NCBI RefSeq assembly: GCF_000225705.1
Contig: NZ_JH126470.1
Location: 124,001-188,000 of the forward strand
Reading direction: 5' to 3'
Source of the DNA: Collinsella tanakaei YIT 12063
GTDB taxonomy: Bacteria; Actinomycetota; Coriobacteriia; Coriobacteriales; Coriobacteriaceae
Length of the DNA: 64,000 bases
Shown: one piece after another, positions 3,853-54,050 of the stretch
Position numbering within the stretch: the stretch's first letter is position 1
How the letters are laid out: each line of letters starts with the position of its first letter
Notes under the pieces: generated by a model
Database searches by the model: none
Told to the model about the DNA's origin: nothing
What the model saw: the letters and a program-made list of their open reading frames with translations, nothing else
Translations under genes and position numbers: made by a program

Positions 3853-4312
3853 AGAGCCCCCTTAGTCAATTGGCCTTCTAGCAAACGCGCGCCGCGGGTG
3901 CGCGCATACACGGGTACGGCGCGCATGCGTGGGGCGGGCGGGTGGGCGTGAGCGAGTTGCGAGCCATGGCCGTGGGAGGTCGCGTTTGCAGGGCCCCGGG
4001 TCCAGCCCGGGTCTGAGTTGCGGGAAACGCGGCAAGGCGAAATTGATTATCCTAGGCGTGATTTATGGGACTGAAAGCCGTTTGTAAAGCGCGGGCAAGG
4101 GATGGGCATGAGGTGTTACGCGTCTGCAAAGGGAGCCAGCCGCAGTGTAAGGAAATCAGAGGGATTCTAGTCCAAAAACAAGATTGCCAAATGTCGCTAG
4201 CGTCAGATGGGTACCAGCAACGTATTGGGGCGTGTGCGCGCCGGCTCTTTAATGGACGCCGCCGCCCCCGGATCGCCTGTAACCGCAAGTGGCCCTACAA
4301 GGGGGAATGCAT
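3853..4312. other. Intergenic region upstream of HAD gene
   Basis: This GC-rich stretch separates the divergent ABC ATPase stub and HAD gene. I see a short CCCGGG self-complementary pair near 4000 but no gene, and no promoter that I would defend. Confidence 0.4.
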
Positions 4313-5110
4313 ATGATTAAACTGATCGCATCTGATATGGACGGTACGCTTTTGGACGAGAACGGCGAGGTGCCGCCGGAGACCTTCGACCTTATTGTGG
4401 CGCTGCGCGAGAAGGGGATCCATTTCGCCGCGTCGTCTGGTCGCCGCTATGACCGCCTGTGCCAGTTCTTTGCCCCGGTCAAGGACAAGATGGATTTTGT
4501 GGCATCTAACGGCGCGCAGGTTTACGTGGAGGGCCGGCAGGTGGGTCGCGAGGTGTACTCGCACCTGTCCGTTAAGCGCCTGGCCCGCACGGTGGCGATG
4601 TTCGACAACATGCACCTGGCCCTGTTCGACCGTACCAAGAGCTACCTGCTTGATGATGAGAGTAAGTTTGTGCGCGAGATCGACAAGGACCTGCCCAACG
4701 CCGAGCGCATCTGGGAGCTGCCGGACGCGGGCGTGAACATCATCAAGGCGTCTATTTTCTGCGATGACGGCAACGTGATGGACAACGCCTACGTGCTTGC
4801 CCGTGAGCTGGGGGACGAGTTTGTGTTCGCGCCCTCGGGCAACGCGTGGATCGACGCCATGCAGCCGCATGTGAACAAGGCGACGGGTGTGGCCGAGTTG
4901 ATGGACCACTACGGCATCGCGCGCGAGGAGGTCATGGCGTTTGGCGATTCCATGAACGACTACGAGGCCATCCGTTTTGTGGGCACCGGTTGCGCCATGG
5001 CCAACGGCCGCCCCGCCCTGCGCGCCGTCGCCGACCGCGTGGTGGGCTACAACTACGAGCAGGCGGTGCAGCAGGAGATGCGCAAGCTGCTGGAGGCTGC
5101 CGAGGTATAG
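4313..5110 (+). CDS. Cof-type HAD-IIB family phosphatase
   Basis: The 265-residue protein belongs to the Cof/YbiV branch of the HAD superfamily, cytosolic Mg2+-dependent phosphatases acting on sugar phosphates, nucleotides or PLP. Motif I is DMDGTLLDENG at residues 8-18, motif II is the ASSGR run near residue 42, the Lys of motif III lies in the VNKATG region, and motif IV is FGDSMNDYEA. The start chosen is the ATG at 4313 because AAGGGGG (4299-4305) lies 7 bp upstream; an earlier GTG at 4289 lacks a ribosome site. The substrate cannot be told from sequence. It stands alone between two non-coding stretches and ends 52 bp before a long hairpin. Confidence 0.9.
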   Translation: MIKLIASDMDGTLLDENGEVPPETFDLIVALREKGIHFAASSGRRYDRLCQFFAPVKDKMDFVASNGAQVYVEGRQVGREVYSHLSVKRLARTVAMFDNMHLALFDRTKSYLLDDESKFVREIDKDLPNAERIWELPDAGVNIIKASIFCDDGNVMDNAYVLARELGDEFVFAPSGNAWIDAMQPHVNKATGVAELMDHYGIAREEVMAFGDSMNDYEAIRFVGTGCAMANGRPALRAVADRVVGYNYEQAVQQEMRKLLEAAEV

Positions 5111-5162
5111 CGGCGGCGTAGGTGGACGAGGATCCCACCGAGAAACCCTATGCGCATGGAAG

Positions 5163-5245
5163 GGCCCGCCGGCCTTTATCACGGAAATGTGTTCGGCACG
5201 CTTCGCGCGCCTCAGAGCATTTCCTTAGATAAAGGCCGGCGGGCC
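5163..5245. repeat. Conserved-loop hairpin, family copy 1
   Basis: The outer stem is 18 bp and perfect (5163-5180 with 5228-5245). Inside, GGAAATG (5183-5189) pairs with CATTTCC (5218-5224). The core, read on the minus strand, is CTCTGAG, inner stem GGCGCGC/GCGTGCC, then GAAC. It lies between two convergent gene ends and neither side has a T-run. The same core recurs at 7.07, 41.72, 45.25 and 54.0 kb. Confidence 0.85.
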
Positions 5246-5307: not shown

Positions 5308-6453
5308 TTAGCTTGTGGGTAGATACGTGCGCTCGCTGGTCGAGGCGTCTTCAAGCTTGATGCTTGTGATGCTGTTTACCTGCTCTGGGTCAACCAGCCC
5401 GCTCATTACCAGTGCTTCTCCTGGTGCATCTGGATGGGAATCAACGCCTGACTGCACGTAGGTGTTGAAGATGTTGACGTCCTCCGCGTTGAGTAGGTCA
5501 TCCTCTAGAACCGTCCACGATGATCCGTCGGAGAGGTTCAGCTTTAGCGAATCTCTGATTCCGTAATGGTCTTTGAACCAGATGCTGAAGGGGCTTACAT
5601 AGCAGGTATTGCCGCTTTGCTGATCGCGAAATTTACGCGTTTCCAGCAGTCCGCTTGGGGTGAAGACCTCGCTGTAGACCCTGCCTTCCCGTGGTCCGTT
5701 TAGATACCATTTCACACCGCTCATAACGGTGGCTGCTCCGGGGGTCTCGTCATCAGCTCGGTCTATGTCGCCAATGGGGGTGAAATACATGGTGCCATCG
5801 AGATGGGTGTCGCTGAGCGTTTCTTCGTCATAGAACGAGTAGGTATTGAGGTTTACGCCGTTTGCGCACTCCATGTACATGCCGCCAACGTAGCAGTCGT
5901 TCGACCCATCAAAGACAATTTCATTTTTAGCCCCGTATTGCGTGGCAAGGTGCAGGCCGTCTGGGTTGTCGAGGGAGAAGCGCGCCACGCCGCAGCCGTT
6001 CTCGTCCGCAATCATATCCCTAATGGTCATGGTATAGCCCCAGGCGTGCAGCTGCTTGCCTACGGCCTCGACCTCATTCTCCATGTCTGATAAGACATCT
6101 TCCGCGACTATCGTGCGGTATTCCTGCTTGCACGGGATCCTTTTCGAATCGTCTGCGCCCCCGATGGCATCCCAGGTTACTTGGCTGGATCCGTTGTCGC
6201 CGCGTGGCGCGAATGCCTTTGCGAAGAGCTCCGAGTTCGAAACGGCGCTCACCGCGATGCCTCCCATGGCGGCGATCGCGATACCTATGGCTGCGACCAC
6301 GGGGATGGAGCGTAGCGCCAACCGTCCGGGCTTGGGGACCCCGTGTCCGCGGACTCTCCCCACTCGTTGCCGCGACTCGGCGAGTACGCGGTTGTAGAGG
6401 TCGTCCGATGCATGCAGCGTGTGCATGGCCTTGTCGATCTTGTTACTCCTCAT
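5308..6453 (-). CDS. Membrane-anchored anti-sigma-like protein
   Basis: This protein of about 381 residues has a short N-terminal cytosolic part, one transmembrane helix (around residues 47-71, running from RSIPVVAAIGIAIAAMGG), and a large extracytoplasmic domain of about 300 residues that I do not recognise. It sits directly behind an ECF sigma-factor gene, as anti-sigma factors do. Two starts are possible: a TTG at 6462 overlapping the sigma stop, or the ATG at 6453. I chose the ATG because GGAGG lies about 10 bp upstream of it. Role inferred: the cytosolic N-terminus holds the sigma factor and the outer domain senses a signal. No classical zinc anti-sigma HxxxCxxC motif is visible. Alternative: simply a co-transcribed membrane protein with unknown function. 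Confidence 0.7.
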   Translation of the reverse strand: MRSNKIDKAMHTLHASDDLYNRVLAESRQRVGRVRGHGVPKPGRLALRSIPVVAAIGIAIAAMGGIAVSAVSNSELFAKAFAPRGDNGSSQVTWDAIGGADDSKRIPCKQEYRTIVAEDVLSDMENEVEAVGKQLHAWGYTMTIRDMIADENGCGVARFSLDNPDGLHLATQYGAKNEIVFDGSNDCYVGGMYMECANGVNLNTYSFYDEETLSDTHLDGTMYFTPIGDIDRADDETPGAATVMSGVKWYLNGPREGRVYSEVFTPSGLLETRKFRDQQSGNTCYVSPFSIWFKDHYGIRDSLKLNLSDGSSWTVLEDDLLNAEDVNIFNTYVQSGVDSHPDAPGEALVMSGLVDPEQVNSITSIKLEDASTSERTYLPTS

Positions 6454-6458
6454 GGCGA

Positions 6459-6929
6459 TCAATCCTCCAGATAATCGGCTTTTAGCTTGGCACGTCCGCG
6501 CGCAAGGCGGGTTCTGGCAGTTGCCGGAGGGATTTTGAGTAGCGCGGCGACCTCGTTGGTCGAGAATCCTCCGTAGTAATACAGGACCAAAGGCACGCGG
6601 TATTTTTCCGGCAGCTCCAGCAGCGCGGCAAGCACATCGCGGACCTCTTGCTTGTCAGGAATAGATAGCGACCGCGCATGGTCGTCGATGTTTTCGATCC
6701 AGCGCCAAGACATGCGAAAAAGCGATTTGCATCGGTTGATGGCGACGCGAGCCAGCCAGCGGCGGACGTGCTCGTCGCTCTCAAAGGCGACGTCGCACTT
6801 CATGAGTTGGACAAAGACGTCTTGCGTGACATCGTCCGCGTCCGCGGGGTTGCGCAGGTAGGTGTAGGCGATGCGGTATACCAGGTCGCGGTAGCGACCC
6901 ATGACGTCTTTCAGCTCTGCTGCGTCCAT
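6459..6929 (-). CDS. ECF-type RNA polymerase sigma factor
   Basis: The 156-residue protein has the two-domain layout of an extracytoplasmic-function sigma factor. Region 2 contains YRIAYTYLRNPADADDVTQ (around residues 18-36), and region 4 contains LPEKYRVPLVLYYYGGFS followed by a helix-turn-helix ending in TARTRLARGRAKLK. It would direct RNA polymerase to a small regulon, typically including its own operon. The ATG at 6929 has GGGAGGACC nearby; the longer frame upstream lacks conservation with the family. Its stop lies 5 bp from the ATG of the membrane protein that follows, so the two are co-translated, the classic sigma/anti-sigma pairing. The signal and target promoters are unknown. Confidence 0.92.
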   Translation of the reverse strand: MDAAELKDVMGRYRDLVYRIAYTYLRNPADADDVTQDVFVQLMKCDVAFESDEHVRRWLARVAINRCKSLFRMSWRWIENIDDHARSLSIPDKQEVRDVLAALLELPEKYRVPLVLYYYGGFSTNEVAALLKIPPATARTRLARGRAKLKADYLED

Positions 6930-7035: not shown

Positions 7036-7107
7036 GCCGGCACTATCTATGGAAAAGCTCTGAGGCGCGCGAAGCGTGCCGAACGCATTTCCGTAGCTAG
7101 TGCCGGC
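7036..7107 (-). repeat. Conserved-loop hairpin, family copy 2 (terminator)
   Basis: The outer stem GCCGGCACTA (7036-7045) pairs with 7098-7107. Inside (7051-7092) are GGAAA.GC, TCTGA, the inner stem GGCGCGC/GCGTGCC, then GAAC and GCATTTCC. On the minus strand the hairpin is followed by CTTTTTC, so it probably terminates the HAD gene that ends at 7147. In that transcript the conserved loop is read in the GTTC...TCAGAG direction. Confidence 0.85.
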
Positions 7108-7146: not shown

Positions 7147-7983
7147 TTATCCCACGCAGGAGAGTATGTAGGCGGGAACGCCGTCTTCGTCGTTGCTGGC
7201 CAAGATGACGTCGGCGGCGTCGCGGACCTCGCGCTCTGCGTTGCAGACTGCAGCGCCGCAACCCGCGAGCTCGAGCATGGAGATGTCGTTGTGGTTGTCG
7301 CCAAAGCACGTGGCCTTTGAGGGGTCGATGCCAAGGTGTCCGCAGAGCCAGGTCATCGCGGTGCCCTTGGAGGTGTCTGCTTCCATGACCTCGATGTTTT
7401 GGGGATAGGAGCGTGTGATCTCGATACCGTCCACGGAGGATAGGCGCGCTAGGATTGCGTCGCGGTCCGCCGGGTCCTTCCAGTACATAGCCACGCGCTC
7501 CAGAACGTCGACGCGCTGGATGGTCTGCTCGGGCTCCTCGTCCACGGGCGTGCGCGTGTTGCGCATGGACTGCAGGATAAAAGGGTCATCCATGAACTCA
7601 TCCAGACGGTTATAGAGGTCGCGGCGCAGCAGGCAGTTGCCGTCGGCGAAGAGGTCGAAGGTGACGTCGTACTCGCGGGCGATCTGGTGAACGGCCAGGG
7701 CCTTCTCGCGGGAGAGCGGCGCGCTGTAGATCACGGTTGCGAGATCGGTGTTCTGGGGGTTCTCCGCATCGAGTTTGGCTGCCACGGCGCCGTTTGCGCT
7801 CACGGCGTAGTGCACGGATGGGTGGGCGAGCACCTCTGCGGGAATGCCGGAGAGCGGGCGACCCGTGCAGGGGACGAACTCGATCCCTGCCGCTGCCAGC
7901 GCGTCAAGGGCTCGCCAGCCCATGTCGCTCACTCGCTTGGTGGAGGTGAGAAACGTGCCGTCCATATCTGAAAAGAAGATCAT
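7147..7983 (-). CDS. Cof-type HAD-IIB family phosphatase
   Basis: A second Cof-like HAD hydrolase, 278 residues. Motif I is FFSDMDGTFLTSTKRVSD at residues 3-20, motif II falls in VPCTGRPLSG, the motif III Lys in ADTSKGTAM, and motif IV is FGDNHNDISMLELAG. The C2 cap domain fills residues 85-190. It is likely a cytosolic phosphatase of phosphorylated sugars or cofactors; the substrate is not predictable. It is only distantly similar to the HAD protein at 4313-5110, so the two are not a recent duplication. The ATG start is the first in frame. It forms a single-gene unit closed by the hairpin at 7036-7107. Confidence 0.88.
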   Translation of the reverse strand: MIFFSDMDGTFLTSTKRVSDMGWRALDALAAAGIEFVPCTGRPLSGIPAEVLAHPSVHYAVSANGAVAAKLDAENPQNTDLATVIYSAPLSREKALAVHQIAREYDVTFDLFADGNCLLRRDLYNRLDEFMDDPFILQSMRNTRTPVDEEPEQTIQRVDVLERVAMYWKDPADRDAILARLSSVDGIEITRSYPQNIEVMEADTSKGTAMTWLCGHLGIDPSKATCFGDNHNDISMLELAGCGAAVCNAEREVRDAADVILASNDEDGVPAYILSCVG

Positions 7984-10205: not shown

Positions 10206-10290
10206 TAGACTGTCAAGGCTGTTTTGCCTTGGTCGGAAACCAAGGCACCCCTTAGTTCTGGTCGGTAACCAGAACGCGAGTAATAAGAGG
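10206..10290 (+). promoter_or_regulatory. rpmE leader with tandem hairpins (L31 leader type)
   Basis: A -10-like TAGACT (10206-10211) is followed by two similar hairpins. TGCCTTGG (10225-10232) pairs with CCAAGGCA (10240-10247), and GTTCTGG (10255-10261) pairs with CCAGAAC (10269-10275). Both close on GGTCGG(A/T)AACC, so loop and closing pairs are conserved while the outer stem changes. It lies directly before the rpmE ribosome site. Leaders of this kind, called L31-Corio among ribosomal-protein leader motifs, are known from Coriobacteria; I assign it by position and form, not by a covariance search. Probable role: L31 binds its own mRNA and represses translation. Confidence 0.65.
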
Positions 10291-10299
10291 AGCCCTGCC

Positions 10300-38526: not shown

Positions 38527-40339
38527 ATGGCGATCGTGGGCATAGACCTGGGCACAACCAACAGCCTGGCGGCGGTATACAAAGACGGGCGCGCGCAGCT
38601 GGTGCCCAACCAGTTTGGCGAGTTCCTTACCCCCAGCGTGGCGAGCGTGGACAAGGACGGCCGCGTCGTGGTGGGCCGTATCGCCCAAGAACGGCTGGTG
38701 ACGCAGCCACAGGACACCATCGCGCGCTTCAAGCGCAAGATGGGCACCGACGCGGTGTTATAACCTGGGCGGGCGCCGCTTCACGCCGGAAGCGCAGGAG
38801 TTTTTGGGCGAGCGTGTGGACGAGGCGGTGGTGAGCGTTCCCGCCTACTTCGACGTGGCGCAGCGGGCGGCGACCAAGCGCGCGGGCGCGCGTGCGGGCG
38901 TTCGCGTGGAGCGCTTGGTCAGCGAGCCCTCCGCCGCGGCGCTGGGGCATCATTTCTCAAGTGAGGGCGCCGTGGCCGCCGCCGCGGCGGACGGGTACCC
39001 GCCGGACGAGACCTTCTGCGTGTTCGACTTTGGCGGCGGCACGCTCGACGTCTCGGTGGTCGACTGCTTCGACAACGTGGTGGGCATCAGCGCGGTGGCG
39101 GGCGATAACCATCTGGGCGGGGGCGACTTCGACCTGTTGATCGCGCAGGAGGCGTGTCGCATCAACGGTATTGGCCTCAACGCGCTAGGGGCCTCCCGGC
39201 GCGAGACGTTGCTGCGCGAGGCGGAGCGCGCCAAGCGCGAGCTTGCGGACCGCGATTCCCATGCGTTTCTGCGCAGCTCCATCCCCGCGCTGCCCCAGGT
39301 GCTCCATCTAACCAACAAGGGGCTCTTCGAGCTCGCCGTGCCGTTGTTCATCCGCATCGAGCGCCCGCTCAAGCAGGCGGTGTATGACTCGGACGTGCCG
39401 GCAGAAGAGATCTCGCGCGCGGTGCTGGTGGGCGGATCCAGCCGCATGCCCGTGGTGCGCGACTACCTCGAACGACTGCTTGCGGTTCCCGTGACCTGCG
39501 AGGAGGATTGCGATGTGGCCGTAGCGCTTGGCCTGGGCACCTACGTTGGCATCAAACAGCGCGCGCGGGGCGTCGACAGCTTGGTGCTAACGGACATCTG
39601 CCCGCATTCGCTTTCGACCGACGTGCGCAACCCTCATCCGCCGTTTGAGCCCCTGGCATCTGTCCTCATCCCACGCAACACCACGCTGCCGGCGAGCAGC
39701 TCGCAGGTGTACGCCAATTCGCAGGTGGGTGCGCGCGAGGCTCGCGTGGCGGTGTACCAGGGCGAGAACGTGTACGTGCAGGACAACAAGCAGCTGGCGG
39801 AGCTCATGGTGCCGCTGCCGCGTAACAACAAGAGCCATGAGCCCTTTACCGTCACGTTCACCTATGACATCAATTCTATTTTGGGCGTGGAGGTGCGCGT
39901 GCATTCCACGGGCGAGGTCACGCGCCGTGTCTACAACGGGTCGAGCTAAGATGAGGGCGAGGACGCGCTGGCGACCCTGCAGGAGGTTCAACTGAGCGCG
40001 CGCATGGAGCCGGCACGGGTCGACGCGGAGCTGGCCCTGGAGCGCGCGCTGCGCGTGGCGGCCGAGGGCAGCGATTATGTTCGCGACTATTTAAGCGTTT
40101 TGACCTGCGATTTTGCAAGCAGCTTGAATTCTAACAGCTTAAAGCTATTGATTACGAAAACACGCCAGCTCAACGCCGTGCTCGATCGCATCGAGGCTGA
40201 CAAGGCGGATAACGCGTTCTTTAGGCATGGGGACGAGGGCGATTGCGGCGAGCTCGGTGGTCCTGGCGACAGCTCGGGCAACGAGGCGGGCGACGGTTCG
40301 CATGGTTTGGACGATGGCTTGGACGAGGAGCGGCTGTGA
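38527..40339 (+). pseudogene. hscC: HscC-like Hsp70 chaperone gene, disrupted
   Basis: HscC-type Hsp70s are ATP-driven chaperones with a dedicated J-domain partner. The start is clear (AAGGAG, then VGIDLGTTNSLAAVY with the phosphate loop; FLTPSVASV; FKRKMGTD). The frame stops at TAA 38761-38763, while the homologous sequence YNLGGRRFTPEA continues at once in the next frame, i.e. a one-base frameshift near 38755. About 15 codons normally between TPEE and EFLGERV are also absent. The rest of the ATPase (VPAYFDVAQR, FCVFDFGGGTLDVSVV, VLVGGSSRMP) is open to an in-frame TAA at 39947, after which the C-terminal helical lid continues in frame as DEGEDALATLQEVQLSARM to 40339. The gene is broken three ways unless the bases are wrong. 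The J-domain gene overlaps its end. Confidence 0.8.
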
Positions 40340-41571
40340 ATATCTGGGACGTCTTGGAGATCGAGGCAACGTCGAGCGCCCGGGCGATAAAGCGTGCCTA
40401 CGCGCGGCAGCTTACCAAGCATCACCCCGAGGATGATCCGGAAGGCTTCCAGCTGGTGCAGGCCGCCTACGAGCGCGCGCTGCTTATCGCCCGCGGGGGC
40501 AAGGGCGCATCCGAGGACGTGTCGCCCGCGCTTCGTGCAAGCGTCGAAGCAGGAGCCGTCGCGCCGGAGGCCGTAACCACGGCACCCGCAGCGACGGCAT
40601 CCGCTGTGGGGGAGCCTGCGGCATCGGAGCCCGAAGCGGTGCCGTCCGCCGCTAACGCCACCGTCCCGCGTCCGCGTATCGCGCGCCCGGGCGGCGTTTT
40701 TGCTGACGTCAAGGCCGAAGCTGAGGCCGAAGCAGCTGCCGCGGCCTCAGCAGGCGACCCCGCGGGCGCCAGCGCCGGCACCGAGTCCGACTTCATCCGC
40801 GAAAAGATGCTGGGCGACATCCGGCATCGTGAGGACGCGCTGCGCTGGATCGACGACCTGGACCGTGATCTGAACAGCAACGGCGACGCGCTCGCGGCTT
40901 TGCGGCGCCGGCCTGCAGCGCAGTACATGGACGTCGACGGCGCGGACCAGGCTGCGGCGAACCTTCTTCGTCCATACGTAAGCCGCATGCGCCAGCGCGA
41001 TTTGGACCAGCTTGAACAGGCGCTGGGAGCCGCGGCAGAACAAGATGCGCTGCGTGCGCTGCTGGCGCGGCGCCGGGCGGAGCACGCGAAGCATCGGCGA
41101 GATGTGCTGAGCGTGCTGGCGAGCGTGGTGGTGCTCGCGGTGTCCTTTTCGCTGCGCATGGGGCAGATAAGCCGTAGGGCGGAGCTGCGACAAGAGGCGC
41201 AGCAGAGCATGGAGCAGATGAGGCAAGAGGTCTTGAAGCGCCGTGATTCGCTGGATTTAGAAGGCCCATCGTTTGGCGCGCCCATTGCCAGTGAGGATGA
41301 GAAGCGCGCGCTCGAGGCGGCGGCAGAGACAAACCGTGCGGCGATTCTGGACTACCTGCGGCAGGCGTTTGGGGCTGAGTTCACGCTGGAGGAAGACCCA
41401 TCGTTTGTTCCCGGGCATACCGACACGGTGATGGCGATAGCGACCGATCCGGCAGCTGCACGCTATGCGGTGATGGCAGATGTGGACGAGGAGTGCCGCA
41501 TAACCGAGATTCGCTCCGCCGTGGAGGTGGATGAGAAGGCCGTGCCTGCGCCTGCGGGCGATGCCAGCTAA
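40336..41571 (+). CDS. J-domain membrane protein, partner of the HscC-like Hsp70
   Basis: The 411-residue protein begins with a J-like domain: IWDVLEIEATSSARAIKRAY, with ARQLTKHHPEDDPEGFQ where a classical HPD would be (the HscC-partner DjlB/DjlC type uses a P-(E/D)-D-D-P-E-G-F variant). Then comes an Ala/Pro/Glu-rich linker, a helical segment, one transmembrane helix (HRRDVLSVLASVVVLAVSF, about residue 256-276) and a C-terminal soluble domain. It would recruit and stimulate the chaperone at the membrane. The GTG start overlaps the previous stop (GTGA). The frame is intact although its chaperone gene is broken. Confidence 0.8.
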   Translation: MNIWDVLEIEATSSARAIKRAYARQLTKHHPEDDPEGFQLVQAAYERALLIARGGKGASEDVSPALRASVEAGAVAPEAVTTAPAATASAVGEPAASEPEAVPSAANATVPRPRIARPGGVFADVKAEAEAEAAAAASAGDPAGASAGTESDFIREKMLGDIRHREDALRWIDDLDRDLNSNGDALAALRRRPAAQYMDVDGADQAAANLLRPYVSRMRQRDLDQLEQALGAAAEQDALRALLARRRAEHAKHRRDVLSVLASVVVLAVSFSLRMGQISRRAELRQEAQQSMEQMRQEVLKRRDSLDLEGPSFGAPIASEDEKRALEAAAETNRAAILDYLRQAFGAEFTLEEDPSFVPGHTDTVMAIATDPAAARYAVMADVDEECRITEIRSAVEVDEKAVPAPAGDAS

Positions 41572-41680: not shown

Positions 41681-41754
41681 GGGGCCGCGGGCTTATCCGG
41701 GGATGCTCTGAGACGCAGCGCGTCGAACGCATCCCCGGATAAGCCCGCGGCCCC
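41681..41754. repeat. Conserved-loop hairpin, family copy 3 (terminator)
   Basis: The 25-bp outer stem is perfect (41681-41705 with 41730-41754). The loop carries CTCTGA, inner stem GACGC/GCGTC around AGC, then GAAC. TAAAAA precedes the left arm, so on the minus strand the hairpin is followed by TTTTTA and terminates the permease gene. It also lies at the 3' end of the convergent J-domain gene. Confidence 0.88.
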
Positions 41755-41792: not shown

Positions 41793-43151
41793 CTACGCCT
41801 TACGAGCGCGACGACGGCCCATGAGATAGGTGGCGACCGCCAGCGTGATGATGTGCGCCGCCACAAACGGCCAGCGCGTGGGGTTGGAGATGCTGGAGAG
41901 GCCCACGGCCAGCGAGCTCGCAATGGCGATCACGGGCGCGATGGCGCGGCGAATGCGCGTGGCGCGGTTGGGCGCGGGGCCGGCGGGATCGTGGACTAAG
42001 GCCTGGACGTAGAACAGCGGCAGCACCAACAAGGTGAGGCTTACGCTGACTTCCGAGATGTCGCCGTTGGGCAGCAGGTTGAAGGTGGTGACCACGGCGT
42101 GCACGGCCATCCAAAACAGGGTGGTGCCCAGCGCGATCGCGGCAGACACCAAGGGGAACTTGAGCGTCTTGTTCATGCGCAGGACGGCCTTGGAGCACGG
42201 AATCTCATCGTGCAGGGCAAGCGCGTAGGGCATGCGCAAAAGCGACAGCACCAGGCCGTTGGCGGTTCCCACCACGGCGATAAGTGCGATAAGGTTGGGC
42301 AGGGTTGCGGCGCCCTCGCCAAAGAGCTCCACAAAGAGCATCGACAAGCTGGCGTCGCCGGCGGCCATGACGGTCTGCGGGCCCAGCGTGCAAGAGACGC
42401 CCAAGAAGTAGCCAACGTAGAGGACCAAGATGATCGCCGGTCCGATGGTGAGCGCCAGCGGCAGGTTGCGCTTGGCGTTCTTGAGCTCCGGCGCGATGCT
42501 GGCGGCGGCGCTCCAGCCGTCGAAGGCGAAGGCGATGGGCGCGGCGGCGGCGATCCACCCGGTGCCGGCGGCGCCCGCGGTCTCTATGCCATGGACAATG
42601 TGCTGGGCGGGCTGGCCAAAGACGAGGCCCACCGCCAGCACCACCACCAGCGGGGCTACTTTGGCGACGGTGGTGGTGTTCTGCACGTAGCCGCCAAGCG
42701 TGGGCCAGCAGACGTTCCATACACAGCAGGCCAGTAAAAACACCAGGCCAATGGCCATCTGCTGGGCAAAGGTGCCCGCCAGGCCAAAGGTCATGCAGGC
42801 GTAGACGCCCACCACCCAGCAGATGATGGCGGTCACCATGGGCAGGTACAAAAAGGTGAAGTGCCAGCCAACAAAGGTAAGGCGGTGCGGGCCCAAAAAG
42901 CGCTCGGCATAGGCGATGGGGCCGCCGGCGCCATCGGTGCGCGAGGCGAAGCGAGCCAGGGTGAGGCCGCCAAAGACAATGGTGGTCGCGGCCAGTAGAA
43001 ACATCGCCACGCCTAGGGCGACGTTGCCGCCCGTGGCGATCAAGATGTTGTCAGATTTAAAGAAGATGCCAGACCCAATGCAGATGCCAACGATCATGCA
43101 CAGGGCGGTAGTGAGCGTGTAGCGCTCGACGTGAACGGTTTGGTTTTCCAT
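41793..43151 (-). CDS. APC-family amino acid permease
   Basis: This 452-residue membrane protein has about 12 hydrophobic helices. TM1 has the family's broken-helix motif GICIGSGIFFKSDN that binds the amino acid backbone, and TM6 carries the AFAFDGW-type motif (IAFAFDGWSAAASIAPELKN), placing it near the Ser/Thr exchanger and LAT-like branches of the APC superfamily. The exact substrate cannot be read. The ATG at 43151 has a weak AGAGG upstream. It starts 12 bp after the end of the small holin-like gene on the same strand, forming a two-gene unit. Confidence 0.92.
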   Translation of the reverse strand: MENQTVHVERYTLTTALCMIVGICIGSGIFFKSDNILIATGGNVALGVAMFLLAATTIVFGGLTLARFASRTDGAGGPIAYAERFLGPHRLTFVGWHFTFLYLPMVTAIICWVVGVYACMTFGLAGTFAQQMAIGLVFLLACCVWNVCWPTLGGYVQNTTTVAKVAPLVVVLAVGLVFGQPAQHIVHGIETAGAAGTGWIAAAAPIAFAFDGWSAAASIAPELKNAKRNLPLALTIGPAIILVLYVGYFLGVSCTLGPQTVMAAGDASLSMLFVELFGEGAATLPNLIALIAVVGTANGLVLSLLRMPYALALHDEIPCSKAVLRMNKTLKFPLVSAAIALGTTLFWMAVHAVVTTFNLLPNGDISEVSVSLTLLVLPLFYVQALVHDPAGPAPNRATRIRRAIAPVIAIASSLAVGLSSISNPTRWPFVAAHIITLAVATYLMGRRRARKA

Positions 43152-43950: not shown

Positions 43951-45177
43951 ATGGTGCAGACCTATACATATGGCGATGCCAAAACGGCGATGCCCGCCTG
44001 GGCGCAGGACGGCTCGCGCTGCATTTCCTTCTTCCTGTTCAACACGCAGGTGCATATGCACGCGTATGCCGCCGCGCGCCCCACGGGTCGCCCCGCGGCC
44101 GCGGACCCAAACGCCGCTGCCGGTCCAAGCACCGCCGCGGGCTCTGAAGCCACCGCGCGCCTGGACGCCGCCCTCGTCGCCGCCCGAGACCGCTGCCTAT
44201 TTTTCGAGCGCGCCTTCTCGCGCACCCGCGATGACTCCGATATCGCCCGCGCGCACGCCGTCTCGCCCAATGCCGTGCCCGTCTCGCCCCAAACGGCCCA
44301 TCTGGTCCGACAGGCCCTGGGCTACTGCGAGCGCAGTCGCGGCAAGTTCGACATCACCATGGGCACGGTGACCTCGCTGTGGAACTTCCACACCGGCGAG
44401 GTGCCCAGCCGCCTCGCGCTGGCGCGCGCCCTGCCCCATGTGGACTACCGCCATATAGTTTTGGACGAGGAGCCTTGTGAGAAGGAGCCTTTGGGCGAGG
44501 AGTCTCTGGATAAAGACTCTCCGGTCCAGGGTTCTCTGGACGAGGATGCTTTGAACGCCGACGTCTCCCGCGTGCCCTCGTCCAAATCATCCCAGCCCAC
44601 CCTTGCCATCACCGACCCCCAAACCATCCTCGATCTGGGCGGCGTCGCCAAGGGCTACATCGCCGACGATCTCGCTGACCTCTTTATCGCCCATGGCGTC
44701 GGTCGTTTTGTCATCAACCTGGGCGGCAACGTGGTGGTGCGCGGGGGCCGACCCGCGGACGCGTCCGCCCGGCCTCCCGTGGCCGCCGGCAGCCCCTGGC
44801 GCATAGGTATCATCAACCCGCTCGACCCCGCGCACAACCGGGCCATCGTGGACATGGCGGATGGCTCCGTGGTCACCAGCGGCATCCATGAGCGGCGCTT
44901 TACCAAGGGCGGCGTCACGTACCACCACATTCTCGACCCCGCCACCGGCATGCCCGCCAAGACCGATCTCACCAGTGCAACCATTATCGCCCCGCGCTCC
45001 ATGGACTGCGACGGCTACTCCACCACCGCCCTCATGCTGGGCGCGCGCGACGCCATCGACTTTGTGGAGTCGCTGCCCGGTATCGAGGCCGTGCTCATAG
45101 ATGAAGCGGACGAGGTCTGGTGGACGTCCGGCATCGAGGAGCGGTTGTCGTTGGTGCCCACGTTGCCCCGGTTCTAG
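43951..45177 (+). CDS. apbE: FAD:protein FMN transferase (ApbE)
   Basis: ApbE attaches FMN covalently to a Thr/Ser in target proteins such as Rnf/Nqr subunits or extracellular reductases. The core is clear: LGGVAKGYIADDLADLF, VINLGGNVVV, DGSVVTSGIHERRF and YHHILDPATGMPAKTDLTS with the metal-binding Asp. The protein is 408 residues, longer than the usual 300-350, because of an acidic repeat insert at residues 171-213 (EEP, KEP, EES, KDS steps) encoded by imperfect tandem repeats of about 24 bp. There is no signal peptide or lipobox, so it would act in the cytosol unless an upstream start is missed. No target protein is encoded nearby. AAGGGAG precedes the ATG. Confidence 0.93.
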   Translation: MVQTYTYGDAKTAMPAWAQDGSRCISFFLFNTQVHMHAYAAARPTGRPAAADPNAAAGPSTAAGSEATARLDAALVAARDRCLFFERAFSRTRDDSDIARAHAVSPNAVPVSPQTAHLVRQALGYCERSRGKFDITMGTVTSLWNFHTGEVPSRLALARALPHVDYRHIVLDEEPCEKEPLGEESLDKDSPVQGSLDEDALNADVSRVPSSKSSQPTLAITDPQTILDLGGVAKGYIADDLADLFIAHGVGRFVINLGGNVVVRGGRPADASARPPVAAGSPWRIGIINPLDPAHNRAIVDMADGSVVTSGIHERRFTKGGVTYHHILDPATGMPAKTDLTSATIIAPRSMDCDGYSTTALMLGARDAIDFVESLPGIEAVLIDEADEVWWTSGIEERLSLVPTLPRF

Positions 45178-45220: not shown

Positions 45221-45293
45221 CCGCCTCGGCTTCCTCCAGGGTATGTTCGCCGCATGCTGCGGCTCAGAACACCCTGGAGGAAGCCGGGGGCGG
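45221..45293 (+). repeat. Conserved-loop hairpin, family copy 4
   Basis: The outer stem CCGCCTCGGCTTCC with TCCAGGGT (45221-45242) pairs with 45271-45293 with small bulges. On the plus strand the core reads GTTCG, inner stem CCGC/GCGG around ATGCT, then CTCAGAA, i.e. the reverse of copies 2, 3 and 5. It lies 44 bp after the apbE stop. The following T content is low. Confidence 0.75.
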
Positions 45294-48857: not shown

Positions 48858-49032
48858 TTTGGAGACGGTGCTGTCTTTAGAACAATCGATGGCGTTTCTT
48901 GAAAGACGCAGATAACCGTTCAACGGAGAAACCGCAGCTAAACAACTGGCTGGAGATTGAAGAAAGCGATAGCGGGGGATAGCATGAAAGCTAGGTGCGA
49001 AGGAATGTCACTTCTACTGAGTGGGAGGAATT
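48855..49032 (+). promoter_or_regulatory. Promoter and structured leader of secreted protein 2
   Basis: TTGTTT (48855-48860), 17 bp, TAGAAC (48878-48883) is a plausible promoter. The leader of about 140 nt holds three successive hairpins: GCGTTTC/GAAAGACGC (48892-48909), CCGT-TCA-ACGG (48916-48926) and CAGC/GCTG (48935-48952), then GGGAGGAATT before the ATG. I compared it with the c-di-GMP-I riboswitch and found only loose similarity, so no class is assigned. Confidence 0.5.
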
Positions 49033-52000
49033 ATGGGAACGCGGAAAACGCATACGGCGCGCCTCGCCGTGAGTGCTGGTTTGGTTGCTGCGCTTGCCGG
49101 CGGTGTCTCGTTGGCTCCGGCAGTTGCTTTTGCTGTTGATGAGCTTGCGCAGGAAAAAGCCGTGGACCAGGGGGCCACTGTAGAGTCAAAAGCGGTCACA
49201 ATGGTTCAGGGTGGCGGGGCGGCGGTTCAGTACGACAGCATTGCCGCCGCCATTGCCGATGCTAAGCCGTACGACTACAAGACAAATAAAGAAGCTTACG
49301 TAATTACGCTCAACGATAACCATGCTGAGGATGTCAGCATCCCCGCGAACACCAGGATAGTCATCGACCTCAACGGCCACACCCTTTCAAATGCGAGCGG
49401 CCATACCATTACCAATAGTTCTAACAAGCTTGAGGTAAAGGATAGCGTTGGCACCGGTGTTGTTGACAATACATCGAACGGCAAGGCCGCGCTTTACAAT
49501 GACGTTAAGGCGACCGCGACGCTTAACGGCGGCTCGTTTACAAGGTCTGCCGAAGCCAGCACAAGCGATTCCGATGCTGGTGGAAACTCGTACTATGTTC
49601 TCAAGAACTACGGAACAATGATCATTAACAAGGGCGTTGTTGTGAAGTTCTCCGATACCAATCCCGGATTCTATTCAAGCCTTGTTGCCAATGGCTGGCA
49701 GGATGCCATCAAAGCGGAGGCCGGCACTAGCGGCGAGCCGAAGCCAACTGATGGTGCCAAGAAGGCGACGCTAACGATTAACGATGGATCGTTCACCGGC
49801 GGGCAGATTACCGTTAAAAATGATGACTATGGCACTCTTACCATAAAGGGTGGCGCAATCGCCCAGCCTTCTGAAGGAAGGTTTGCGGTTTACAACAACC
49901 ACATTGCAAAGATTAGCGGCGGCAACATCTCTTCGAGATCCAGCGCGGTGGCGTCGCGGATGATAAAGGACACCGGCGCAAATGAGGGAAGCCTGACCGT
50001 GGAGTCGGCTGCGGTTATTGTTAGCGAGGCCGGCAATCCTGTGTTCTTGAGGGACGGCGCTAAGGCGACCATCACTGGTGGATCTTTTGAAGCCAAGGGT
50101 GGTGCTGTTGCCATTGGTATTAACGATGACGCCTCGAACGCGGTTGTAAGCGGTGGAACCTACAAAGGGACTACCAAGGTCTCGAATAGGGGCGATGTTC
50201 TTGTAGACCGCTACGGCGTTGTTGAGAAGGACGGCTCCCTTGTTGTGGAGATGACCCGTCCTGCGGCAACCGTGATCATGGAGGACGGAACAGCGACCCC
50301 TTACGAGACCTTTACCAAGGCATGCAGTAATGCTCCCGCTTACAGTACGGTCAAGCTGAACGAGAATGCGGTTTTGGGCAAATTCGCTGCTAAAGTACAG
50401 GCGTTTGGCGTTACGGTTGACCTGAACGGATTCAACATCGACGGTTCTGCCTATATGGGCCCGGACGCGACCTTGGCCATGAAGCCGTCCTACGGTGCGA
50501 AGCCGGTTGAGGGTAAAGATTCCACCTTGAGGATAATCAACAGCGTTCCTCAGTCTGGGGGAACGATTAAGGGCAAGCTGCCCGTTGAGGGAGCTTCTGG
50601 CAATAGCATGTTTGCCGCACCGCTGTACATTGGCGACGAGGTGACCCTTGAGGTGCTTGAAGGGGGCAGCACCGCGGTTAAGCTGGGATCTTCTTCTTAT
50701 CTTGCTTATTCCGAGAAGGCGGCATCTTATGTTGCCAACGGAGGATTTAGGATGCAGGCGGCTGGTGGAAGCGATCGAATCTACGGGTCCCCATCGAGCG
50801 CCGCGGCCGATTTGCCCGAAGGCTCCGCAATAACCATGCTGCACCCTTACGTTGGTAACGAGGCTATTTGTTCTGGTAGCAAGGGCTACATTCTTGATTT
50901 GGGCGGCAATGCATACAGCTACACTGGTACGCAGCAGATCGTTGATATTAATTACGACGGCGCGTCGATTACCATTCGCAACGGCATGCTGAAAGCTCAG
51001 AACCCGCTTGATACGGCGGGCGTTTCGATGCTCTACAGCAACAGCTCGCTGACAATGGATGGCGTTACCATGCAGTTGAACGGTGCCACATGGGGCATTG
51101 GTACGAATGGCGGCGAGGAAAACAATACGATCCGATTGGTGAACTCGACCATCGATGTTGCGGACGGTTTGGGAATCTACTTCCCTTGCTCAGGCTCTGT
51201 TGTAATTGATAATACGGTCATTAAGGCAAAGTCTTTTGGTGTTCAGCTTTGCGCCGGCAGCCTGACCGTCTTGGGGGATAAGACCTCGATCACCGCGAGC
51301 GGCAGCCCTGCGGAAAAGACAGAGGCCGACGGTCCGATTGTTGACGGTGCCGCAATCTCCGTTATAGAGCGCGATGGCTATAAGGACCTTGGCAAGGTGA
51401 CCATCTCTGGTGGCGCGTTCATGGCGGGTGAAGGAATCCCCGCTATTGAGGCGTACGCCTTCAACAATACCGACAAACGGAGCGAATGGACGCAAGCGGG
51501 CGACGTCGTCGACATCAGCGGCGGAACGTACAGCGCGGCACCTACCAATATGGACAAGCTGCTTGCAGGCGGCTACGAGTTGGTGGAGTCGGACGGTTCC
51601 TGGGCGGTGCGGCTTAAGGAAAACCTGCGCGCGGCCGAGGTCGGGGGCGCGTATTACCCGACCGTGGCTGATGCGGTAGCGGCGGCCCGGGACGGCCAGA
51701 CGGTGAAGCTGCTCAAGGGGGTCGAGGAGGACGCCGAGATCCGCATCGACGGCAAGCGCTCCATCACACTCGACCTCGCCGGCTGCAAGCTCGACGCCCG
51801 CGCTCATCAGATCGTTGTCGAGTCGGGATCGGGCCTGACGGTGAAGGGCGGCGGCGAGCTGACGAACACATGCACTCAGAACGCCACCGGAAGCTACGTT
51901 GTCTACGGAGCGGACGGGTCGAGGGTCGCATTCGACGGGGTCACCGTGAACGGAGCCTACGGCCTGTACGCGGCGGGCGAGGCCTCGGTGAAGCGCGCGA

Positions 52001-53787
52001 ACCTCAACGTGACGGGCGGGTGCGCGATCGCCGTCAACGGGTCTGCAAGGGTAGAGATCGGCGACCCCGCCGCCACGGCGGAGGAGAACGCTCGCGACGT
52101 CGTCGTGACCAGCGCGAACAACTGCATCTCGACGCAGACGAAGGAGGGCGCCGCCGATTCCCAGTGCACGGTCTACGGAGGCACGTTCATCGCGGGCAAG
52201 AAGCCCGACAACCCCAGCAATCCCTGGAACAGCGGTCCCGTCTACTGGGCCTCCCACGGGACGCTCGACATCAGAGGGGGCGTCTTCAAGGCCGATGTGG
52301 AGACCGCCGCGGTCTTCCAGAAGAACGGGACGGTGAAGATATCGGGCGGCGAGTTCACCGCGAAGGACGGCTTCAAGATTGACGCGACGGCGCAAGACAC
52401 CACCGAGATCGCGACCGAGATATCCGGCGGCAAGTTCGCCGGCACGCGAGCGGGCTTCTACTCGAACGCCGACGGGGGCAGCATAGACTACGGTGCGAGC
52501 TACAGCGTCAAGGTGACCGGCGGAGAGTTCCGCGGCGGTTCCGAGGGCGCTATCTACGTGAAGGAGGGCGACGCGATCGCCGCCGAGGGCAAGCGCGCCC
52601 TCGAGGTCACGGGCGGCGACTTCTCGGAGAACCCCATCGAGTTCGTGCCCGCCTCGGGCTACGAGGTGGTCGAGTCGAACGGCATGTTTACGGTCTCGAA
52701 GTACGTGCCACCCACTCCTCCTTCGGGCGGCGGCTCCACCTCCGACAAGACCGAGGTCGAGAAGAATCCCGACGGCTCCACCACCACGACGGTGACCAAG
52801 CCCGACGGCTCGCAGACCATCACGCACGAGACCGCCAGCGGCACCGAGTCCGTGGTCAAGAAGGACGAGGACGGCAACGTGACCTCCACCGAGGTGACCG
52901 TCTCCAAGGCCGACGCCGAGAACGGCAAGGTGGAGCTGCCCATCGAGGAGTCCGAGCCCGGGTCGGACGTCGAGAAGGCTCCCGAGGTCGAGGTGAAGGT
53001 GCCCTCAAGCGTTTCCGACAAGACCCCCGTCCAGGTGACGGTCCCCGTGGCGAAGGGCGAGGGCGACGAGCCCGACTACGGCATCGTCGTGTTCGCTGTG
53101 GACGCCGATGGGAATGAGACCGTGATCCCCAAGTGCTCGGTCGATAAGGACGGCAACGTCGTCTTCGAGGCAACCGGCGACGTGACGATCAAGGTCGTGG
53201 ACAACGCCAAGGACATGCCCGACGTGACCGACGCCGACTGGTTCGCGGGCGACGTGGTCGACTTCGCGACCGCCCGCGGCATCGTCAACGGCGTCGAGCG
53301 CCCCGACGGCTCCCGCGTCTTCGACGGATACGGCAAGACCTCCCGAGGCATGTTCGTGGCGATGCTCCACAACTTGGAGCTGAACCCCGAGGCGGCCTCC
53401 GAGGGCAGCCTCGCGGACGTCCCCGAGGGCGCCTTCTACGCCGACGCGGCAGCGTGGGCGCTGGGGGAGGGCATCCTCTCCGGCGTCGACATGCCCGACG
53501 GCTCCAAGCAGTTCCAGGGCGGCGAGGACGTCACCCGCGAGCAGGTGGCCGTCTTCCTGATGCGCTACGCCGAGCACCTGGGCATGGACGTCTCGAAGCG
53601 CGCGGAGATCGACTTCCCCGACGCCTCCGAGGTCAGCTCCTACGCGAAGGACGCCATGTCCTGGGCGGTCGCCGAGGGCCTGTTCACCGGCGACGACGTG
53701 ACCGGCGAGCTGAACCCCACCGACGGCGCTGCGCGCGCCGAGGTCGCCACCGTCCTCATGCGCTTCATCAACCTGATGTACGCGTAG
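49033..53787 (+). CDS. Giant secreted beta-helix protein with SLH anchor, second copy
   Basis: This 1584-residue exported surface protein. The signal peptide ends AVAFA|VDE near residue 36. Residues 60-1230 are repetitive beta-helix sequence with many GGxxxG and SGGTYxxxT turns (for example ISGGNISSRSSA, VSGGTYKGTTKV, ITGGSFEAKGG). The end (residues 1231-1584) is the same stalk and three-SLH cassette as in the previous gene. The coding style changes sharply near 51.6 kb: earlier codons are AT-richer, later ones GC-rich, so the gene is a mosaic. GGGAGGAATT precedes the ATG at 49033. SLH repeats bind secondary cell-wall polymer, so the protein is displayed outside; a binding or adhesion role is inferred. 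Confidence 0.85.
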   Translation: MGTRKTHTARLAVSAGLVAALAGGVSLAPAVAFAVDELAQEKAVDQGATVESKAVTMVQGGGAAVQYDSIAAAIADAKPYDYKTNKEAYVITLNDNHAEDVSIPANTRIVIDLNGHTLSNASGHTITNSSNKLEVKDSVGTGVVDNTSNGKAALYNDVKATATLNGGSFTRSAEASTSDSDAGGNSYYVLKNYGTMIINKGVVVKFSDTNPGFYSSLVANGWQDAIKAEAGTSGEPKPTDGAKKATLTINDGSFTGGQITVKNDDYGTLTIKGGAIAQPSEGRFAVYNNHIAKISGGNISSRSSAVASRMIKDTGANEGSLTVESAAVIVSEAGNPVFLRDGAKATITGGSFEAKGGAVAIGINDDASNAVVSGGTYKGTTKVSNRGDVLVDRYGVVEKDGSLVVEMTRPAATVIMEDGTATPYETFTKACSNAPAYSTVKLNENAVLGKFAAKVQAFGVTVDLNGFNIDGSAYMGPDATLAMKPSYGAKPVEGKDSTLRIINSVPQSGGTIKGKLPVEGASGNSMFAAPLYIGDEVTLEVLEGGSTAVKLGSSSYLAYSEKAASYVANGGFRMQAAGGSDRIYGSPSSAAADLPEGSAITMLHPYVGNEAICSGSKGYILDLGGNAYSYTGTQQIVDINYDGASITIRNGMLKAQNPLDTAGVSMLYSNSSLTMDGVTMQLNGATWGIGTNGGEENNTIRLVNSTIDVADGLGIYFPCSGSVVIDNTVIKAKSFGVQLCAGSLTVLGDKTSITASGSPAEKTEADGPIVDGAAISVIERDGYKDLGKVTISGGAFMAGEGIPAIEAYAFNNTDKRSEWTQAGDVVDISGGTYSAAPTNMDKLLAGGYELVESDGSWAVRLKENLRAAEVGGAYYPTVADAVAAARDGQTVKLLKGVEEDAEIRIDGKRSITLDLAGCKLDARAHQIVVESGSGLTVKGGGELTNTCTQNATGSYVVYGADGSRVAFDGVTVNGAYGLYAAGEASVKRANLNVTGGCAIAVNGSARVEIGDPAATAEENARDVVVTSANNCISTQTKEGAADSQCTVYGGTFIAGKKPDNPSNPWNSGPVYWASHGTLDIRGGVFKADVETAAVFQKNGTVKISGGEFTAKDGFKIDATAQDTTEIATEISGGKFAGTRAGFYSNADGGSIDYGASYSVKVTGGEFRGGSEGAIYVKEGDAIAAEGKRALEVTGGDFSENPIEFVPASGYEVVESNGMFTVSKYVPPTPPSGGGSTSDKTEVEKNPDGSTTTTVTKPDGSQTITHETASGTESVVKKDEDGNVTSTEVTVSKADAENGKVELPIEESEPGSDVEKAPEVEVKVPSSVSDKTPVQVTVPVAKGEGDEPDYGIVVFAVDADGNETVIPKCSVDKDGNVVFEATGDVTIKVVDNAKDMPDVTDADWFAGDVVDFATARGIVNGVERPDGSRVFDGYGKTSRGMFVAMLHNLELNPEAASEGSLADVPEGAFYADAAAWALGEGILSGVDMPDGSKQFQGGEDVTREQVAVFLMRYAEHLGMDVSKRAEIDFPDASEVSSYAKDAMSWAVAEGLFTGDDVTGELNPTDGAARAEVATVLMRFINLMYA
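52723..53787 (+). repeat. SLH anchor cassette, copy B
   Basis: Second copy of the 355-codon block of 47692-48756, in direct orientation 5,031 bp downstream. Recombination between the two would delete or duplicate the whole intervening secreted-protein segment. Confidence 0.9.
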
Positions 53788-53960: not shown

Positions 53961-54050
53961 GGCCGGGGCGCCCACCGGCTTATCTAAGGGATGCTCTGAG
54001 GCCCGCCAGGGCCGAACGCATCCCGTGATAAGTCCGGTGGGGCCCCGGCC
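53961..54050 (+). repeat. Conserved-loop hairpin, family copy 5
   Basis: The outer stem (53961-53984 with 54027-54050) has a few mismatches. Inside, GGGATGC (53988-53994) pairs with GCATCCC, enclosing TCTGA, inner stem GGCCC/GGGCC around GCCA, and GAAC. It lies about 50 bp after the protein-2 terminator. Confidence 0.85.

Follow-up and report, generated by a model that had tools for sequence, protein, structure and literature searches.

Long hairpins with a conserved, oriented tip at gene 3′ ends in Collinsella and other Coriobacteriia

How transcripts end without U-tracts in the GC-rich actinobacteria is a disputed question. The I-shaped terminators of mycobacteria and other actinobacteria are GC-rich hairpins without a poly-U tail, lying not more than about 50 bp past the stop codon (PMC12288462). 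In one tested case their orientation was found to matter (PMC5335608), and their activity as terminators is itself disputed (PMC12288462, PMC5335608). The hairpins described here, whose tips are designated type A and type B, resemble this class as it is defined, being hairpins without a U-tail shortly past the stop codon (PMC12288462). They differ from it in having stems of about 32 bp, a conserved asymmetric tip, often a second internal loop, and tip types that are interchangeable; the portions of the I-shaped terminator accounts considered here mention no such conserved tip (PMC12288462, PMC5335608). Palindromic candidate structured RNAs of human microbiomes have also been catalogued in bulk, most of them being predicted terminators (PMC8040213). 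These too are palindromic and terminator-like, but the part of that paper considered here names no such Collinsella family; since the catalogue is a bulk one, individual hairpins may already sit in its supplementary table (PMC8040213).

Canonical (L-shaped) terminators, like the present hairpins, are GC-rich and situated past the end of a transcription unit, and some of our copies keep a T4–T5 run. However, most A and B copies lack a U-tract directly after the stem, and their tip is conserved. REP and REPIN elements are likewise repeated, extragenic, located near gene 3′ ends and lineage-specific. REP copies have their stem sequence in common, whereas the stems of A and B are unrelated and only the tip is common; REP/REPIN elements are, in addition, associated with a RAYT transposase. 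When Rfam 15 was searched at the gathering score, no match was obtained over the window hairpins or over 18 loci with B or C hairpins, and four A loci searched at E ≤ 5 gave sub-threshold matches only. A literature search of open-licence PMC texts found no description of these hairpins. Integron attC sites, the hammerhead and SECIS elements were considered and dropped: the conserved part of our hairpins is apical, a third helix is lacking, and the orientation does not fit.

Type A hairpins in the window

The window, a 64,000-nucleotide stretch of Collinsella tanakaei YIT 12063 (contig NZ_JH126470.1, positions 124,001 to 188,000), had been predicted to hold five hairpins with a common TCTGA/GAAC core. 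All five were present, folding with −47 to −75 kcal/mol on the strand that carries TCTGAG. When the window was searched for TCTGAG N5–30 CGAAC, five matches were obtained, every one inside these hairpins; in 100 shuffles the mean was 0.80 and none reached 5. The common core was thus confirmed.

Copy 1 (5163–5245, tip 5191–5216; TCTGAG on the minus strand, sense plus; covariance-model match 5.5e-14) lies 52 bases past the stop of a gene for a HAD/Cof-type hydrolase (Hydrolase_3; 4289–5110, plus strand; Pfam PF08282, 4.9e-48), and a convergent gene occupies 5308–6462 on the minus strand. Copy 2 (7036–7107, tip 7059–7084; TCTGAG on the plus strand, sense minus; 5.0e-12) is found 39 bases past a second HAD/Cof-type hydrolase gene (7147–7983, minus strand; PF08282, 1.4e-46), with a T5 run after the stem on the sense strand. 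An amino acid permease gene (41793–43151, minus strand; PF13520, 4.6e-32) is followed after 38 bases by copy 3 (41681–41754, tip 41707–41728; TCTGAG on the plus strand, sense minus; 3.2e-17), the outer stem of which is a perfect 26 bp; it also has T5 on the sense strand, and the convergent gene is at 40243–41571 (plus strand). Copy 4 (45221–45293, tip 45245–45268; TCTGAG on the minus strand, sense plus; 2.4e-16) lies 43 bases past a gene of the ApbE family (43951–45177, plus strand; PF02424, 4.4e-69). Copy 5 (53961–54050, tip 53995–54017; TCTGAG on the plus strand; 3.5e-17) stands 173 bases past the gene of a large surface protein that carries a single S-layer homology domain close to the C-terminus (49021–53787, plus strand; PF00395, 5.3e-12), and breaks the orientation rule given below. 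All five are therefore at gene 3′ ends as predicted, four of them at 38–52 bases and copy 5 at 173. The T5 runs predicted on the minus strand of copies 2 and 3 were also seen, as the flanking AAAAA reads TTTTT on that strand.

Reading outward, a type A hairpin has a loop of mostly 3–4 bases, a short inner stem, internal loop 1 and a stem of 6–8 bp. In many copies a second internal loop follows (AC/TTA in the sense strand) and then a base stem; several copies, for example copy 3 and L010, are perfect stems without the second loop. The inner and outer stems of the window copies differ and yet pair, as had been claimed, the inner stem of copies 1 and 2 having a G–T pair. An alignment was prepared from 22 type A copies, 15 from the window's genome and seven from relatives, leaving aside opposite-strand repeats, one weak place (L019) and copies found later. 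Here 90.5% of the cells were paired compared with 69.0% in shuffles, two-sided changes occurred in 15 of 18 pairs, and the covariation was 0.615 against 0.216. When the register was slid by one column, pairing fell to 36–42%. The pair closing the type A loop also covaries (14 U–A, 7 C–G), which fixes the pairing register. Such covariation supports the view that selection has kept this structure, in which the internal loop is conserved and the stems covary. The shuffle count and the covariation, together with the reversed-pattern control described below, led us to reject a chance origin.

Internal loop 1 reads TCTGA/GAAC on the model strand and GUUC/UCAGA in the mRNA sense. Tandem G–A pairs had been proposed for it. 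As TCTGA/GAAC lies on the strand opposite the mRNA, such pairs are possible in the antisense strand (RNA or DNA) but not in the mRNA. The kink-turn consensus has a three-base bulge on one strand adjoining tandem G–A pairs; by inspection, three bases face two beyond the tandem G–A of our loop, and this on the antisense strand only, so that the loop did not qualify as a kink-turn.

Occurrence of type A and of a larger family

Two covariance models were used for type A, R1 made from the five window copies and R2 from the 22 copies. For the window's genome (G000), R1 gave 19 places at E ≤ 1; three of them were the same hairpins read on the opposite strand, and one was a weak and partial match. R2 also gave 19 places, 17 of them at E ≤ 6e-5 (16 strong and one weak, L077), and the other two (E 0.05 and 0.12) had no such hairpin fold; the covariance model thus puts the type A copies of this genome at about 17. 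With R1, type A was found in 5 of 43 genomes of the genus and in 5 of 65 of the family. With R2 it was found in at least 11 of 396 class genomes when 14 candidates were scored per genome, and when 150 candidates were scored in 18 chosen genomes, 11 had a match at E ≤ 0.05; the weak matches L082 and L083 appeared doubtful by eye. The original prediction stood to fall if a search of Coriobacteriia genomes with the five-copy model returned no more copies, or copies without the loop or the pairing. More copies were found, and they keep both.

The strict A pattern was searched in 84,980 species genomes, a collection that may omit the window's own record. Of seven stretches obtained, four were hairpins, two in Collinsella vaginalis and two in the Coriobacteriaceae MAG SIG40, and the other three do not fold into a hairpin. 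A wide spread of type A outside Coriobacteriia was rejected on this result. It may be noted that G042, a genome of the window's genus, corresponds to C. vaginalis by sequence. A viral origin was likewise rejected, as all 20 viral-contig matches of a loose A pattern formed no hairpin and a strict B pattern had no match there. In a separate observation, 16 of the 17 A copies of G000 lay on contigs C3, C4 and C6, which make up 32% of the genome, and C1, with 27% of it, carried none (post hoc p values 1e-7 and 0.004); this skew is partly due to local duplications.

Type A is one tip type of a larger Coriobacteriia family, and the predicted five-copy family, though real, was in this respect incomplete. 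When the groEL 3′ ends of 30 genus genomes were surveyed (30 loci out of 40 genus genomes with a match), long hairpins with three tip types were observed, and also plain terminators. Tip B has the form GTCCTCG–stem–CTGCGGRAT. Its pattern occurred in 34 of 42 genus genomes, and the reversed pattern in none of the 42; the 30 matches for which loci were retrieved were all tips of long hairpins. Like those of type A, the inner stems and flanking pairs of type B covary. The B tip contains two invariant G–U pairs, formed on the sense strand only. One hairpin (L057), B-type on its 5′ side and A-like on its 3′ side, was matched by the models of both types. Tip C was found only at groEL of G030 and G039.

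Model R3, the type B model, detected B in 69 of 396 class genomes, belonging to 12 of 153 genera. Among 396 phylum genomes it detected B in 14; the window's family accounts for 12 of them, and the other two (G551, G563) come from outside the class. The hairpin in G563 (L208) reads as a genuine B hairpin, but that in G551 (L209) does not. L208 is convincing, with an AC/TTA second loop, and comes from a fragmented assembly outside the class but in the same phylum; transfer or contamination is possible. Where 150 candidates were scored, there were up to 18 B copies per genome, and none in G042, G029 and G025. The window's genome has one divergent B copy (L189, G000:C3:220467–220521), which apparently lies between convergent genes.

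Placement relative to genes and exchange of tips

Genes around the A copies were called with a simple codon-usage gene caller, and 30 copies were counted, leaving out L077–L083. In 27 of these a gene 3′ end was present on the expected (canonical right) side, 43–93 nt from CGAAC. Both neighbours faced the hairpin in 15 copies (including L001), which therefore say nothing about direction, the right one only in 13, and the left one only in two (L003, L005). L001, with its right gene 174 nt away, was counted among the exceptions. L001, L003 and L005 lie on the other side of, or far from, the gene end, and their flanks are mutually homologous, so that they probably represent one event; copy 5 of the window is one of this trio, its flanks being homologous to those of two other A copies of its genome, L001 and L005. 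For type B we counted 66 copies, that is, the distinct matches of the strict B expression within the retrieved loci only. The upstream gene ended on the sense side in 63 of these, 35–66 nt away in 55, and three copies broke the rule. The one-sided cases were 13:2 for A (p 0.007) and 46:3 for B (p 7e-11), values that ignore relatedness, the copies not being independent. Since the stems are near-palindromic, the tip alone has a direction, and this direction follows the gene. Hence, the statement that both orientations relative to genes occur holds in genome coordinates only; the tip follows the upstream gene in every window copy but copy 5, and in 27 of the 30 copies overall.

A minority of the genes in each genome carry these hairpins. 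Genes with type A include groEL, the pyruvate:ferredoxin oxidoreductase gene, rplX, rpsJ, ftsX and ridA; the Pfam search covered the window genes, and all other names come from translations read by eye. Of the 63 B copies that follow the rule, the eight outside the 35–66 nt group were found at the signal recognition particle (SRP) RNA locus. Rfam placed SRP RNA directly upstream of the B hairpin, on the same strand, in three of three loci tested (L119, L125, L134), which links the hairpins to transcripts and not to translation. A T5–T6 run precedes the hairpin at this locus, and the hairpin may therefore be unneeded for ending the SRP transcript. Its arm sequences differ between species yet still pair. 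In one case (L123, G010) the arms did not match, the left resembling L138 and the right L119/L124, as if recombined in the tip, judging from the sequence. In L119, L121, L124, L129 and L134 a gene close to the SRP RNA locus has at its 3′ end a different long inverted repeat (GTTGCGGTGGAATA...).

Types A and B replace one another at orthologous genes. Pyruvate:ferredoxin oxidoreductase has A in G042 and G023 (L020, L021) and B in G022 (L132), and rpsJ has A in G138 (L052) and B in G023 (L133). At groEL, comparable base stems bear A, B, C or a plain loop, depending on the species; the loop is plain in G020, and a similar base stem bears A or C tips in G016, G022 and G030. Inner parts are also common to different loci. 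Two non-orthologous B hairpins of one genome (L197, L130) are 98% alike over the inner 60 bases, with unrelated outer flanks (36%); L006 has its arms, but not its flanks, in common with L003/L005; and one inner unit occurs in two different base stems (L116, L120).

Stems, U-tracts and the role of the hairpins

The arms contain 20–36 Watson–Crick pairs in type A (30 copies) and 18–45 in type B (66 copies). The median of 32–33 compares with 15 in 80 other gene-end hairpins and 12 in the 20 having TTTT. A base with T4 or more was present in six of the 30 A copies and five of the 66 B copies, leaving 24 and 61, respectively, without a U-tract. Some hairpin tails, TGCGTT for example, agree with the end of the genus's ordinary terminators (TTTTTGCGTT). 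If pairing in RNA is under selection, G–U should be favoured over A–C in the arms. When the two oppositions were compared, no clear excess was observed (A 19:12, p 0.28; B 32:26, p 0.51). After removal of similar copies the ratios were 15:10 for A and 22:16 for B, against 13:3 for ordinary T-tailed terminators (Fisher p 0.15). Near-perfect arms without a clear G–U excess over A–C leave room for a DNA-level process, for example template switching, by which the arms would be kept perfect.

We consider that these are probably RNA hairpins of transcript ends, like the actinobacterial I-shaped terminators, with a tip that is probably read by a trans-acting factor. Some 20–50 bases beyond the stop codon, the RNA would fold into a long hairpin of about 25–35 Watson–Crick pairs with a lopsided tip. 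This hairpin would mark the transcript 3′ end. Most likely it would act as a terminator of the I-shaped, U-tract-poor kind, or stop 3′ exonucleases, or do both; the long stems, and the lack of a U-tract in most copies, are the grounds for taking it as an I-shaped-like terminator or a 3′ protector. The tip direction that follows the gene argues for something read during or after transcription, probably by an RNA-binding protein, or by RNA polymerase together with a Nus factor. As long as pairing holds, the sequence of the stem would drift freely, and types A and B, and probably C, would serve as interchangeable versions across species. We infer that the RNA strand is what matters, acting in termination or stabilisation with a trans-acting factor. 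In favour of this reading are the covariation in both types, the short and narrow spacing from the gene 3′ end, the tip orientation, the SRP RNA case, the replacement of A by B at orthologous genes, the sense-strand G–U pairs of tip B and the terminator-like tails. What counts against it is that most copies lack the U-tract needed by intrinsic terminators, that three A and three B copies break the orientation rule, that G–U shows no clear excess over A–C, that a T5–T6 run already precedes the hairpin at the SRP locus, and that only a minority of genes bear one. The suggestion of a selected structure at gene 3′ ends, more than a simple terminator, is thus supported. A broader proposal, which we offer tentatively as possible but open to doubt, is that Coriobacteriia have a dedicated transcript-3′-end system, in which the oriented tip of a long hairpin, carried by selected genes that are often highly expressed, is recognised by a factor acting in trans, the tips having diversified and been swapped as modules between loci and species, with the stem only a scaffold.

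The modular inner units (L197/L130, L006, L116/L120), and the groEL hairpin, which has a plain loop in G020 but bears an A or C tip above a similar base stem in G016, G022 and G030, would also be expected of a small mobile or gene-conversion-driven palindrome (REP/MITE-like) settling in existing terminator loops. The internal loops would then be nested-insertion scars, and the gene-end placement would follow from the target. The near-perfect stems and the patchy presence of type A, which R1 detected in 5 of 43 genomes of the genus, fit such an element. Copies of a transposed element should, however, resemble one another, and the stems of most copies are unrelated; the strict tip orientation and the 35–66 nt spacing from stop codons also speak against it. 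Moreover, one type B stretch searched in phages and one type A stretch searched in plasmids gave no match, and the strict B pattern had 0 matches in viral contigs. We regard both this origin and the scar reading that goes with it as unlikely.

That the hairpins are ordinary intrinsic terminators, with a common tip that was inherited or arose by chance and has no role, would account for their position, their GC-rich stems and the minority of copies with T4 or more. It would not account for a tip conserved across unrelated stems and fixed in orientation, for the absence of the reversed pattern from all 42 genomes, or for stems roughly two to three times the length of those of other gene-end hairpins, and it seems to us improbable. 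Still less credence is given to a DNA-level palindrome to which a DNA protein binds, in the form of a cruciform or of a single-strand hairpin, with arms kept perfect by template switching and no role in RNA. The scarcity of G–U pairs, with G–U near A–C in the arms, and the tandem G–A mismatches that the antisense strand of tip A could form agree with it, but the orientation tied to the direction of transcription, the SRP RNA case and the invariant sense-strand G–U pairs of tip B do not; we hold it to be highly improbable. The hairpins offer a clade-wide, U-tract-poor set in which tip A, B, C or a plain loop can be compared at the same gene, and the oriented tip is a concrete bait for a 3′-end factor. 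They would also improve operon and 3′-UTR annotation in a common gut genus.

Two other features of the window may be mentioned. The most over-represented 8-mer was TGGACGAG/CTCGTCCA, with 38 occurrences against 3.2 expected from trinucleotides, found on both strands in coding and non-coding DNA (for example at 5123, 54072 and 54099). It may serve in DNA uptake, act as a Chi-like site or be some other recognition word; a literature search found no paper joining Collinsella and a DNA uptake sequence. Finally, positions 10255–10292 matched the Rfam L31-Coriobacteria ribosomal protein leader (RF03128, 35.2 bits).
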